Source: Rhodoflexus caldus
Lineage (GTDB): Bacteria; Bacteroidota; Bacteroidia; Cytophagales; Thermoflexibacteraceae
Reading direction: 5' to 3'
NCBI RefSeq assembly: GCF_021206925.1
Contig: NZ_JAJPRF010000013.1
Coordinates: 1-64,000, forward strand
Length of the DNA: 64,000 nucleotides
This document shows positions 8,513-24,762 of the stretch, piece after piece (the first letter of the stretch is position 1; each line of letters begins with the position of its first letter). The notes under the pieces are model-generated. The model did no database searches, was not told the DNA's origin, and was given only the letters and a program-made list of their open reading frames with translations. The translations under genes were made by a program, and so were the position numbers.

Positions 8513-9946
8513 ATGATTGTAGAATTTCCAAATCCTTCGCCGCGCCTGCTGGTGGTCGGCGATTTGATGATAGACCATTACCTCTGGGGAAGTTGCAACC
8601 GTATATCGCCCGAAGCTCCTGTGCAAGTGATTGATATTGAGCGCGAAAGTTGCATTTTAGGCGGTGCGGGAAATGTTGTAAACAACCTCCTTGCATTAGG
8701 CGCACAGGTAACTGTTGCCTCCGTTATCGGCAAAGATGCCAACGGAGAGCTGCTGCAAAACCTGTTGCAGCAAGCCGGTGCCGATGCCCGCTTTCTAATT
8801 ACTTCGGAAACGCGCAAAACCAGCCGTAAAAGCCGCCTGATGGCTGCCCACCAACAGGTAGTTCGCTACGACAGCGAAACAAAAGCCGCCATTACATCGG
8901 AAGAAGAAGCCCAATTGCTTGCCTCATTACTGCCTGCATTGCAGCAGTTTGACGTGGTGCTGCTTTCCGACTACGGGAAGGGAGTTTTAACCGACAAGGT
9001 TTGTCAAGAAATTATTCAAAGTTGCCGTGCTCATAATATTAAAGTGCTGATTGACCCCAAAGGAACGGATTACAGCAAATACAAAGGCGCATACCTGATT
9101 ACGCCCAACCGCAAAGAAGCAGCCGCAGCAACGGGGCTTTCGTTGCACAACAACGAACAACTGCTGCTTGCAGGTCGGCAACTCAAACAATCCTTAGCAC
9201 TTGCCTATGCCATCATTACGCTTTCGGAAGCGGGGATGGCTTATTTTGATGAAGAAATGCACCTCATTCCCACACAGGCAAAAGATGTGTATGACGTTAC
9301 GGGTGCAGGCGATACGGTACTCGCCGCCCTTGGTTTTGCGCTTGCCAACAACAAGCCACTGGCCGAAGCCTGTCATTTTGCCAACTATGCCGCTGCGGTG
9401 GTAGTTGCCAAAGTGGGCAGCGCCACGGCTACACTGGGCGAAATTGAGGCCTTTATTGCTTCCACGGGAAAATCGGAAGGCAGCGAAACATTCATCAAAT
9501 CGTGGGAAGAAATCGGCAGGTTGGTGCAGCAACTGAAAAAGAGCGGTAAAAAAATCGTTTTTACCAATGGTTGTTTTGACATCCTGCATTTGGGGCATGT
9601 CAAATATTTGGAGAAAGCCCGCAGTTTTGGCGATGTGCTCATTGTGGGCGTAAATACCGACGAATCGGTACGCCGCCTGAAAGGCCCCGAAAGACCGGTT
9701 AATACAGAGTTTGACCGCGCCTATCTGCTGGCAGCACTCAGTGCGGTGGACTATGTGGTGCTGTTCGGTGAAGACACGCCCTACGACCTGATTCGCCTGA
9801 TTCGCCCCGATGTGCTGGTCAAAGGCGGCGACTATACAGGCAAGGAAGTAGTTGGCAGCGATATTGCCGGAGAGGTGCGTCTGGTGGACTTTGTACAAGG
9901 CAAAAGCACCACCTCGGTTATTGAAAAAATGCGAAAACAGGGGTAA
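8513..9946 (+). CDS. hldE: Bifunctional heptose-7-phosphate kinase / heptose-1-phosphate adenylyltransferase
   Basis: HldE makes ADP-heptose for LPS core. The N-terminal ribokinase-like domain (about 1-320) has 'GGAGNVVNN' for substrate and the 'DVTGAGDT' anion-hole motif with the catalytic Asp near residue 264. The C-terminal nucleotidyltransferase domain begins near residue 340 with 'FTNGCFDILHLGHVKYLE' (HxGH motif). Full length of 477 aa matches the fused two-domain enzyme. gmhA, which makes its substrate, follows one gene downstream (11041). gmhB is not in the window. Confidence 0.95.
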   Translation: MIVEFPNPSPRLLVVGDLMIDHYLWGSCNRISPEAPVQVIDIERESCILGGAGNVVNNLLALGAQVTVASVIGKDANGELLQNLLQQAGADARFLITSETRKTSRKSRLMAAHQQVVRYDSETKAAITSEEEAQLLASLLPALQQFDVVLLSDYGKGVLTDKVCQEIIQSCRAHNIKVLIDPKGTDYSKYKGAYLITPNRKEAAAATGLSLHNNEQLLLAGRQLKQSLALAYAIITLSEAGMAYFDEEMHLIPTQAKDVYDVTGAGDTVLAALGFALANNKPLAEACHFANYAAAVVVAKVGSATATLGEIEAFIASTGKSEGSETFIKSWEEIGRLVQQLKKSGKKIVFTNGCFDILHLGHVKYLEKARSFGDVLIVGVNTDESVRRLKGPERPVNTEFDRAYLLAALSAVDYVVLFGEDTPYDLIRLIRPDVLVKGGDYTGKEVVGSDIAGEVRLVDFVQGKSTTSVIEKMRKQG

Positions 9947-22158: not shown

Positions 22159-24018
22159 TTAAAACAAGATGTGATAGCTCAAAACGGCTTCTTTTCCGGC
22201 AGGGGCTGCCCAGATGAGTTCGCTTTGCCCGCCAATGGTGCGTATTTTGAGCTGTGCGGCCTGCTCTGCCGAAAGGCGCAGATAGTGCGTGCCGTTAATC
22301 AGGAACAATCCTTCGTCTGCTTTGGTAACAGTGCCTTTGGCAAGGCGCAGGTAAGTATTGGCAGGCGCACCGTTGATGCTGATGTTGCGCAAGAGGGTTT
22401 TGCCGCCGTCTGCCATTGCCACGCGGTCGGTAAGAGTGGTGCTGCCCATCAGGTAGCGGAAAGTCGGCACGCCCTGCGTGTCAAGTTCCATACCTTTGTA
22501 GGTAATGCCTACGGAGTCGGGAAATGCGGTTTGTTCTGTTGCCAGCACTGCTGCTATCGGGGCAGCCTGCAAATCAACCACGCTGCCCAGCGGAGGAACA
22601 TTGCCGCCGCCGCGCTCGTGCCAAATGGGAGCAGCATCTACAAACTCGCCGCGCCATGCGTACAGCAACTTGCCCTGACTTAAATCCATGGCATAGTTGA
22701 TTTGTTCGGGAAAACCAACCGAAATGGCATGAGAATATTGTCTGCCGCTATGTTGTACAAAAGCTCGCAGGAGATAGGGCTTTCCATCTTCGGGTTTTAC
22801 GTGCATGATAGGGTCGGGAGAAAGCGGCGGCACACTGCCCGAGGCGTGCAAGGCATGACGCTCGATGTTTGGCCCTTCGGCATAAACTCCCAGTAACGGA
22901 TACTGCCATTCAATCCACTTGGCATATGCCACCTGAATCGGATATTTACCGGGTTTAAGGTCTATTTTGCCCAATTTGACACTGCCGCGCCAATTTTCGC
23001 CGGTTTTCTCTACTAACTTTTGCCCATTGACCGTAATGCTGCCTGCTCCGTTACATTCTAACCCGAAGAAATAAGTACCGGGTTCAGCTACGGTAACGGT
23101 ACCGTTAAAAAGCAGTGCGCCGGGTTCGTTGTTGTCGCTTACCTGCCACGTAATGCCCTCAGGAGCAGGCAAATTGCCCTCAGGTTGCAGGGTTTTCCAA
23201 TCGGGCAGGGCTTTGTCAAAAGTGCCGTTGTAGCGCACCGCCGTTACGTTGTCCACTTTCAGGCCGGGCTTGCTGTACAAACGATAGCGGATGTTGCGGA
23301 ATGCCACCGGCCCGTGGTCGCCTTGGATGCGCAGCGGCCCTGTCGGGGCTTCTTTCTCAAAAGCAGAACCGCGTGTAGGCCCTGTAATTTCCACATTTTC
23401 ATGCACCAGAACGCCATTGTGGAATACTTTGACAAACTTTGCATTGGCTGTTTTTTCACCTTTCTCGTTGAAGCGCGGCGCACGGAAAATAACATGGTAT
23501 TTTTGCCATAAACCCGGGGCACGGGTTACGTTTACTCGGGGCGGGCGGCCTTCGTAGCCTTCCTGCCCTTTGGGTTTGCTGCTGTCCCAGCGTTCGTAGA
23601 TGGCGGCGCAATCGTGCTTACCCGGTTTGAGGCTGCCGCTGAGCGTGCGTGTATGGCTATCCAGAATCTGCAACTCATAGCGCCCCATAAAATAAATCCC
23701 CGAATTGGTTTCGCGGGCGTTCATAAATTCCAGCTCAATTTCCATGTCGCCATGTTCCATGAGCGTAAAAAGGTCGTCTTTTTTATGTTCATCGGGCAGA
23801 TTGACCAATATGCCTGTGCCGTTGCCTGCCTGCAAGTCTAATTTTTTGTCCGGATGTGCGCTTACGCTACCTGCAATGCGCCAGTTGCCGGCCTGCGACT
23901 TAAATGCCTTCATATCGGCCAGCGACAGGGTAGAGAAGGGATAGCCCTGCTCATTTTGCGCCCGAACGCCCCATGCAGCCAACATTACAACGGCTACAAG
24001 CCCGTTTTTCCATTTCAT
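22159..24018 (-). CDS. Secreted DUF1080 (3-keto-disaccharide hydrolase family) protein, 619 aa
   Basis: Signal peptide ('GVRAQ' near residue 21). Residues about 30-245 form a DUF1080 concanavalin-like domain: 'HGDMEIELEFMNARETNSGIYFMGRYELQILDS' and the closing 'GPLRIQGDHGPVAFRNIRYR' are hallmark phrases. Members act on 3-keto-glycosides or related sugars. A middle beta domain (about 265-385) has the 'FLGL..NGAGSITVNGQKLVE' pattern of PA14-like sugar-binding modules. The C-terminal 220 residues form a further beta-rich region not recognised. A carbohydrate-active periplasmic role is likely. Its start is about 150 nt from the palindromes of the divergent hsp20 region. Confidence 0.85.
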   Translation of the reverse strand: MKWKNGLVAVVMLAAWGVRAQNEQGYPFSTLSLADMKAFKSQAGNWRIAGSVSAHPDKKLDLQAGNGTGILVNLPDEHKKDDLFTLMEHGDMEIELEFMNARETNSGIYFMGRYELQILDSHTRTLSGSLKPGKHDCAAIYERWDSSKPKGQEGYEGRPPRVNVTRAPGLWQKYHVIFRAPRFNEKGEKTANAKFVKVFHNGVLVHENVEITGPTRGSAFEKEAPTGPLRIQGDHGPVAFRNIRYRLYSKPGLKVDNVTAVRYNGTFDKALPDWKTLQPEGNLPAPEGITWQVSDNNEPGALLFNGTVTVAEPGTYFFGLECNGAGSITVNGQKLVEKTGENWRGSVKLGKIDLKPGKYPIQVAYAKWIEWQYPLLGVYAEGPNIERHALHASGSVPPLSPDPIMHVKPEDGKPYLLRAFVQHSGRQYSHAISVGFPEQINYAMDLSQGKLLYAWRGEFVDAAPIWHERGGGNVPPLGSVVDLQAAPIAAVLATEQTAFPDSVGITYKGMELDTQGVPTFRYLMGSTTLTDRVAMADGGKTLLRNISINGAPANTYLRLAKGTVTKADEGLFLINGTHYLRLSAEQAAQLKIRTIGGQSELIWAAPAGKEAVLSYHILF

Positions 24019-24172: not shown

Positions 24173-24227
24173 TGTCATTTTGACATCTTTTTTATTTTGA
24201 AAAAAGCCAAAAAGTGTCAATTTGGCA
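24173..24227 (+). promoter_or_regulatory. Two palindromic operator sites upstream of hsp20
   Basis: TGTCA-TTT-TGACA (24173-24185) is a perfect dyad. TGTCA-ATT-TGGCA (24215-24227) repeats it with one change. They are 42 bp apart, four turns of DNA, so both face the same side. They lie 65-25 bp upstream of a -24/-12 promoter, as expected for sites of a sigma54 activator. Confidence 0.6.
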
Positions 24228-24249
24228 GTAAAAAACCGATAGAAATGGG

Positions 24250-24266
24250 CTGGTACAGGGCTTGCA
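24250..24266 (+). promoter_or_regulatory. Sigma54-type (-24/-12) promoter of hsp20
   Basis: TGGTACA-GGGC-TTGCA matches TGGCACG-N4-TTGCA: GG at 24252-24253 and GC at 24264-24265 are 12 nt apart, the invariant spacing. Predicted start near 24277, giving a leader of about 45 nt to the ATG at 24322. Confidence 0.65.
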
Positions 24267-24321
24267 ATGCTGTTAAGCGTAAACGTTAAAAATGATTCAA
24301 ACAACTAAACATCATAAAGCT

Positions 24322-24762
24322 ATGACACTGATTCAATATCCTTCTCGCTTAGGCAACAGTTTATTCCCTGTGTTCAACCAATTGTTGAGCGATTTTTGGA
24401 ATAATGACGATTTATTGAGCCGTACTACACAGTTTGTACCGGCGGCAAACATCAAGGAAAATGCCGACGAGTTTATTGTAGAGTTGGCTGTGCCCGGCTT
24501 GAAGAAAGAAGATTTCAATATTCAGGTAGAGGACAACGTGCTGCGCATTTCCGCTACTAAACAAAACGAAAGTACCGATGAAACAACAACCGTACACCGT
24601 CGTGAGTTTAGTTTCCATTCATTTGAGCGCACTTTCCGCTTGCCTAAGTCTGCCGATGGCGACAAAATCGCAGCTACTTATACCGATGGTGTGTTGCACC
24701 TCAATATTCCGAAGCGCGAAGAGGCTAAACCCAAAGCGCCAAGAACTATCCAAATCGCTTAG
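24322..24762 (+). CDS. Small heat-shock protein, Hsp20/alpha-crystallin family, 146 aa
   Basis: An ATP-independent holdase that binds unfolding proteins. The alpha-crystallin domain spans about residues 38-135: 'PAANIKENADEFIVELAVPGLKKEDFNIQVEDNVLRISA', the arginine-rich 'RREFSFHSFERTFRLP', and 'ATYTDGVLHLNIPKRE', which holds the G-V-L motif of the beta-sandwich. A C-terminal 'RTIQIA' supplies the I-x-I tail for oligomer contacts. ATG 24322 is preferred because relatives start M-T-L; an in-frame ATG at 24292 would add ten residues. Control by sigma54 with paired palindromes is predicted from the upstream DNA. Confidence 0.93.
   Translation: MTLIQYPSRLGNSLFPVFNQLLSDFWNNDDLLSRTTQFVPAANIKENADEFIVELAVPGLKKEDFNIQVEDNVLRISATKQNESTDETTTVHRREFSFHSFERTFRLPKSADGDKIAATYTDGVLHLNIPKREEAKPKAPRTIQIA

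Follow-up and report, generated by a model that had tools for sequence, protein, structure and literature searches.

Operators and a predicted sigma54 promoter upstream of hsp20 in Rhodoflexus caldus point to a heat-shock regulon of the Bacteroidota

The hsp20 control region

The window, that is, the whole stretch of 64,000 nucleotides of R. caldus DNA that was analysed, carries an hsp20 gene on the plus strand. Its open frame (24292-24762) begins at ATG 24292, and the product matches the HSP20 family (PF00011, E 6e-28). Translation from a second ATG, at 24322, gives a product beginning with MTLIQY. Since this resembles the MTLVK or MSLVK with which the Hsp20 proteins of relatives begin, ATG 24322 is the likelier start, and the gene is placed at 24322-24762. 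A divergent frame (22159-24018, minus strand) lies on the other side of the control region, which comprises two palindromes, hereafter operators, and a sigma54-type promoter. The distal operator, O1 (24173-24185, TGTCATTTTGACA), is a perfect palindrome, and the proximal one, O2 (24215-24227, TGTCAATTTGGCA), has one mismatch; neither is assigned to a strand, and their start-to-start distance is 42 bp. The -24/-12 element (TGGTACAGGGCTTGCA, TGGTAC-AGGGC-TTGCA) occupies 24251-24266 on the plus strand. Its GG (24252-24253) and GC (24264-24265) give the spacing GG-N10-GC, and its TGG lies 35 bp from the start of the O2 core. From the -12 GC, the geometry of sigma54 promoters predicts a transcription start at about 24277 (plus strand), 45 nt upstream of ATG 24322.

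A sequence-only reading of this region had described TGTCA-N3-TGACA and a one-mismatch copy, four helical turns apart, ahead of a promoter with the GG-N10-GC spacing, and all of these elements and distances were confirmed. It had also named the absence of rpoN as an observation that would speak against it; a single rpoN match (PF04552, 2.7e-57; TIGR02395, 443 bits against a cut-off of 277) was found in the genome (G000; 3.96 Mb in 40 contigs). The genome-wide search for TGTCA-N3-TGACA that it proposed came to nothing: the exact motif occurs at a single place in the genome, as does its backwards control, and it was dropped as the regulon motif in favour of GNCA-N3-TGNC. Likewise, TGGYAC-N5-TTGCW gave seven sites genome-wide, several within genes, against five for the control, so that the sigma54 consensus alone was too weak a marker. 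Within the window, five palindrome matches with at most one mismatch were counted against 1.76 expected, and 3 of 100 shuffles reached five; hence, TGTCA-N3-TGACA is only mildly unusual there by count. The one inspected of the three other matches, at 9371, lies inside coding sequence. R. caldus has three more hsp20 genes, and the O1/O2-promoter layout was absent upstream of them. The case for a functional layout thus comes from the comparison across genomes and not from motif counts in the window or the genome.

Operators and promoters at proteostasis genes

Hsp20 protein matches were found in 36 of 39 genomes, that of R. caldus included, and the best locus of 29 relatives was analysed together with our own. 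The 200 nt upstream of hsp20 were scanned for the operator GNCA-N3-TGNC and the promoter TGGYAY-N5-[ATC]TG. At least one operator was present in 23 of the 29 relatives, at least two in 11, and an operator together with a sigma54 element in 15. When R. caldus is included, the observed numbers are 24, 12 and 16, against dinucleotide-shuffle means of 0.32, 0.002 and 0. In the same-genus genomes (L028, L035 and L037) the best hsp20 matches were diverged, and the operators and the layout were absent from them.

The distances between the elements are clustered. With R. caldus included, operators lie 31, 40, 41, 41, 42, 42, 42, 43, 43, 52, 52 and 52 bp from each other, and the nearest operator lies 24, 24, 34, 35, 35, 35, 45, 46, 46, 55 and 57 bp from the TGG. 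For a period of 10.5 bp the resultant is 0.89 for the operator-operator distances (n = 12) and 0.94 for the operator-TGG distances (n = 11). In five further hsp20 loci the sole recognised operator is farther from the TGG, at 87-114 bp, and once these are added the operator-TGG resultant falls to 0.70. Such helical clustering is what an activator confined to one helix face would leave. The layout of an enhancer-binding activator plus sigma54, as proposed by the sequence-only reading, thus gains support from the same architecture, with its helical phase kept, at the hsp20 genes of relatives. The operator pattern was picked after these hsp20 upstream sequences had been viewed, and searches that name no gene therefore carry more weight.

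In 395 genomes of the class, the pattern GACAWWWTGNC-N{22,26}-TGGYAY-N5-TTG, in which no gene is named, gave 22 sites, each in a different genome, and its backwards control gave 5 (counted by hand from the table). All 22 directly precede proteostasis genes, namely hsp20 (10), dnaK (5), htpG (4), groES, tig and trx (1 each); the htpG loci L139 and L140 were named from sequence only, and the dnaK frame of L126 lacks its middle. A version of the pattern starting with GTCA was rejected as the class operator, its number not being enriched (4 sites class-wide, against 3 controls). The four sites are that of R. caldus hsp20 and three that were named by eye: at a dnaK, at an hsp20 and within coding sequence. 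The TGTCA half-sites of the window are therefore taken as a variant of the GACA consensus. These strict patterns match just 22 and 4 of the 395 genomes. An rpoN match was present in 374 of the 395 and in 21 of the 22 that carry sites; G381, a genome 83% complete, has sites and no rpoN match.

A stricter pattern, GACAWWWTGTC-N{22,26}-TGGYAC-N5-TTG, was searched in GTDB, where at least 118 stretches matched and 80 loci were examined. Among the matches listed, chaperone or protease genes stand at 59 of 69 Bacteroidota/Chlorobi loci, against none of 11 in other phyla (Fisher p 3e-8). The first gene is groES in 17 of these 69 loci, dnaK in 17, hsp20 in 16 and htpG in 3 (53 in all), and a further six begin with clpB (3, of which one was identified by its start alone), lon (2) or htrA (1). 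Three listed loci have thioredoxin reductase or glutaredoxin. Five listed loci do not fit: L146, L165 and L209, which are antisense to an obg-like gene, and L190 and L219. At L161 and L169, also among the matches listed, the site is at a contig edge and the downstream gene cannot be read. At the 11 listed loci of other phyla no chaperone was found by BLAST to chaperone seeds, several having less than 400 nt downstream; Pfam was run for one of them, L208. That the site is seen at thioredoxin reductase, glutaredoxin and thioredoxin genes (L156, L206, L162 and L132) suggests that thiol redox functions may belong to the regulon.

Over the 84 sites of the class search and the listed GTDB matches, gaps of 22, 23, 24, 25 and 26 were counted 8, 25, 36, 12 and 3 times, and the gap between operator and promoter has a sharp optimum. 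The base after TTG, which was free in the search, is A in 44, C in 29, T in 11 and G in none; conservation in the other columns is in part a product of the search patterns. The preponderance of TTGA over TTGC at -12 could reflect a Bacteroidota-specific relaxation of sigma54 promoter recognition.

A profile (R1) built from 50 sites, that of R. caldus hsp20 among them, was run on the R. caldus genome, where 150 of 1157 first-look candidates were scored. It gave 11 matches at E up to 1.35, at ten distinct places among the matches listed. The top match, at 24214-24266 upstream of hsp20 (19.8 bits), is itself a member of the profile; the other nine places lie outside the 50 training sequences. They include dnaK (17.8 bits), groES-groEL (15.2 bits), an operon of miaB and an enhancer-binding activator (EBP) gene (14.6 bits), htrA and lon, so that, with hsp20, six of the ten listed places are accounted for. 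The other four, which have no proteostasis link, are the vicinity of a nitrilase-like gene and genes for a metallophosphatase, an ABC transporter and a response-regulator-like protein. The dnaK site reads TGCCATTATGTCA then TGGCACATGCCTTGC, and both hsp20 and dnaK have the canonical TTGC. Five contigs thus share one operator, at hsp20, dnaK, groESL, htrA and lon; at htrA, lon and miaB the match consists of the operator only, without the sigma54 element. The sequence-only reading had suggested that a sigma54 stress regulon with the operator TGTCA-N3-TGACA may exist here. A heat-shock regulon is indeed indicated, but its operator takes the form tGACA-WWW-TGTCa in the group (GNCA-N3-TGNC), and its apparent scope is not local: it extends across the class and takes in the main chaperones.

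A candidate activator encoded beside miaB

Four strong EBPs were found in the R. caldus genome. One of them, encoded at C12:61694 (L005), has its AAA+ domain from residue 13 onwards and no N-terminal regulatory domain. It matches PF00158 (Sigma54_activat, 5.8e-68), carries a Walker A motif and a GAFTGA-type loop, and ends in a Fis-type DNA-binding HTH (HTH_8, PF02954, 9e-12, residues 399-439). G[SA]FTGA is present in 16 of 18 aligned proteins of this class, and the other two have G[SA]FT with one change. Between the AAA+ domain and the HTH lies a segment of about 25 residues, approximately ERDxLYKVLFDMKxDVxELKKLV. In the candidate it is matched by no Pfam family, and to varying degree it recurs in the 18 proteins of the alignment. 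The protein scores 268.2 bits with the PspF equivalog TIGR02974, below the cut-off of 443.55, which places it outside that family, and none of the NCBIfam equivalogs listed for it reaches its cut-off. Another EBP of this genome, L006 (G000:C6:1-3185), has a long N-terminal part, which we take to be similar to that of RtcR-type regulators; EBPs of like size and score occur in the same genus.

EBPs were listed at E ≤ 1e-30 in the 39 genomes and in 24 more, and the retrieved ones were assigned to classes with BLAST. A single EBP, always of the L005 class, was found in G016, G036, G033, G024, G107 and G062, which are 97, 89, 99, 93, 86 and 93% complete. In G016, G107, G036 and G033 the profile, with 150 candidates scored per genome, finds dnaK, hsp20, htpG, groESL or hsp20-htrA. 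In G005, G038, G025 and G029 the sole other EBP stops after the AAA+ lid and lacks an HTH.

In 13 of 22 loci the L005-class EBP gene has miaB no more than about 1.5 kb upstream of it, and groES-groEL follows in the same stretch in 5 of 22 (G038, G020, G027, G036 and G226). In the 220 nt ahead of miaB-EBP or EBP, an operator is present in 10 of 16 genomes and in 4 of 6 more, i.e., in 14 of 22; it is absent in 6 of the 16, G016 among them, and none was found upstream of miaB in G027. Shuffles of the 16 genomes gave a mean of 0.16 and a maximum of 2 in 1000 rounds, against 9 of 16 observed, a number that became 10 once the operon of G007 was counted from the start of miaB. In G038 the TTG of the operator stands 20 bases before TACTTTTG, and the two presumably represent the -33 and -7 elements of a housekeeping promoter of the Bacteroidota. 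Since the operator would then overlie the -33 region, binding there should repress, which suggests that the EBP may repress its own operon. The L005-class protein is the only EBP found in several genomes that carry sites, and an operator is found at its operon; it is therefore likely that the miaB-linked, PspF-like EBP is the cognate activator.

Proposed mechanism, alternatives and wider occurrence

We consider it very probable that the site in the window controls hsp20 as part of a class-wide sigma54 heat-shock regulon, with a dedicated EBP that binds GNCA-N3-TGNC. This EBP would bind the palindromes, often paired on one helix face at 31, 40-43 or 52 bp and separated by whole helical steps from the TGGYAY-N5-TTG promoter downstream, and would remodel RNA polymerase-sigma54 so that hsp20, dnaK, groESL, htpG, clpB and other genes are transcribed. 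From the operator at its operon it would repress its own expression. Binding by this EBP, the need for sigma54, and heat or misfolding as the signal are what we infer from the computed operators, phasing, promoters, regulon membership and operators at the EBP operon. It is conceivable, though rather doubtful, that a chaperone titrates the EBP, perhaps through the conserved segment between the AAA+ domain and the HTH. As to the phylum, we lean towards the view that sigma54, together with a single dedicated and autoregulated EBP, governs its main heat-shock response.

The palindromes might instead be bound by another regulator, for example a classical heat-shock repressor, while the sigma54 promoter depends on a different EBP, such as one of the HTH-less response-regulator class of L003. 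Palindromes before chaperone genes are also known from the HrcA/CIRCE and HspR systems, which the present ones recall, and the HTH-less class is widespread in these genomes. Moreover, G018 (93% complete) has a 23-bit site at hsp20-htrA and no EBP was found in it at E ≤ 1e-30, and in G024, which has an L005-class EBP, the one listed profile match is not at a proteostasis gene. Yet sites are present in the four genomes in which the sole EBP found is of the L005 class, the operator recurs at the operon of that EBP, and the phasing of the operator to the -24 element suits an activator; we regard a different regulator as improbable. Still less probable, in our estimate, is control of the sigma70 type, in which TGGYAY-N5-TTG would be part of a sigmaA or ECF promoter and its likeness to -24/-12 incidental. 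The frequent TTGA at -12 would agree with it, as sigmaA promoters of the Bacteroidota also contain TTTG elements. It is opposed by the TGG-N8-TTG geometry with an in-phase operator at unlinked genes of many genomes, by the lack of G after TTG in all 84 sites listed, by the near-universal rpoN of the class and of the site-bearing genomes, and by the canonical TTGC at hsp20 and dnaK of R. caldus. That AT-rich palindromes and a consensus-like promoter have met by chance, without meaning, we find barely credible: motif counts alone are near expectation in the window and the genome, but the gene-blind searches, profile R1, the EBP-operon operators and the shuffles of the hsp20 upstream regions contradict it.

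The dedicated EBP proposed here can be compared with known systems. PspF is an EBP without an N-terminal regulatory domain, and the candidate is similar to it in the AAA+ domain at residue 13, the C-terminal Fis-type HTH and the operator at its own operon. It differs in its score below the TIGR02974 cut-off, in its conserved linker and in its targets, which are cytosolic chaperones and proteases. HrcA/CIRCE, HspR/HAIR and CtsR are repressors, and sigma32 is a factor of the sigma70 family. With these the proposed system shares the control of dnaK, groESL, hsp20, clpB and lon by one regulator, whereas here the genes appear to be activated through sigma54 by an ATPase acting at a distance. If correct, this would be a mode of heat-shock control distinct from sigma32, HrcA, HspR and CtsR. 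It would also account for the retention of rpoN by nearly all members, insect endosymbionts with tiny genomes included, and some very large phages would tap the EBP/sigma54 system for expression of their own DnaK and Hsp20. The Bacteroidota are a dominant phylum of gut, soil and water, for which the system supplies a candidate activator gene, an operator and a list of targets.

Sigma54 control of Bacteroidota chaperones has been predicted before in outline. In the accessible part of PMC12316311 (2025), enrichment among the sigma54 promoters predicted for the Bacteroidota is reported for the COGs of GroEL, IbpA, GroES, GrpE, DnaJ, DnaK, HSP90 and proteases, sigma54 promoters are predicted at chaperone COGs of the Planctomycetota too, and EBPs are listed per class. 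Citing a Blattabacterium paper, it names as sigma54-dependent both grpE and groES of B. thetaiotaomicron and the grpE of F. psychrophilum. That work concerns the same phylum and promoter class, and its gene set largely coincides with the present one; it is a COG enrichment from promoter matrices, and in that part of it no operator or cognate activator is assigned to the chaperone COGs. A word search of the same text found no palindrome, UAS, bEBP or upstream activat-. For E. coli ibpB, a sigma54 promoter beside the sigma32 control of ibpAB is mentioned in PMC4370416 (as available), which cites Kuczynska-Wisnik 2001. There, too, a small heat-shock gene has a sigma54 promoter; the difference is that it acts beside sigma32, whereas here one operator stands at dnaK, groESL, htpG, clpB, lon and hsp20, pointing to a dedicated activator. 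Activators without enhancer-binding domains are noted in Bacteroidetes in the accessible part of PMC3372290, and the portions available of PMC3162934, PMC7962754 and PMC4641369 do not name the operator or the activator. The open-licence literature searched yielded no settled account of chaperone control in the Bacteroidota and neither the operator nor the activator by name; subscription papers may differ. As far as searched, the operator, its phasing, the putative activator, its predicted autoregulation and the phage copies appear to be new.

In its accessible part, PMC3971599 describes it as 'unusual' that the flavobacterial endosymbionts Walczuchella, Uzinura and Blattabacterium have kept rpoN, and ties this tentatively to nitrogen; on another reading, rpoN may be retained there for the control of chaperones. 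G062, a genome of 490 kb (L328; L335, G062:C1:142000-160000), has rpoN and a sole, miaB-linked EBP of the L005 class. The one relevant operator (E 0.31, without a sigma54 element) lies 42 nt before a pair named by eye as grpE-dnaJ-like, and none was found at the EBP. This fits, weakly, a retention of rpoN for chaperone control.

On IMG/VR contigs the GTDB pattern gave 16 sites in 14 stretches, some being the same site on related contigs. They stand at dnaK in five (L341, L342, L343, L345 and L349) and at hsp20 in two (L344 and L348); at the rest the gene is a different one or none could be made out clearly. L341 and L345 are possibly pieces of host DNA. L342 measures 171 kb, L343 (232 kb) carries dnaK and L348 (297 kb) an hsp20-dnaK pair. 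L343 has a divergent gene for an ATP-dependent protease (PHROG 4871), to which a frame of L348 is similar by look alone, and a PHROG 36119 protein is present in both. After L348 had been viewed, five large phage records of 484-735 kb with a related dnaK and no stated host (LR756502, LR745206, LR756501, LR756504 and LR756508; L355-L357, L361 and L362) were tested for the sigma54 element, and in all five TGGYAY-N5-[ATC]TG lies 43-73 nt before the start. In LR756501 (735 kb), GACAATGTGAC stands 34 bp before this element. In three records of Lak phages of Prevotella, one of which has a whole dnaK frame, no sigma54 element was found near the dnaK start. Large phages with dnaK, and hsp20, behind a sigma54 element, some with an in-phase host operator, may thus use the heat-shock activator of the host. 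On the related viral contigs L351 and L354 (two sites each) and L346, operator and promoter stand before small non-chaperone genes.
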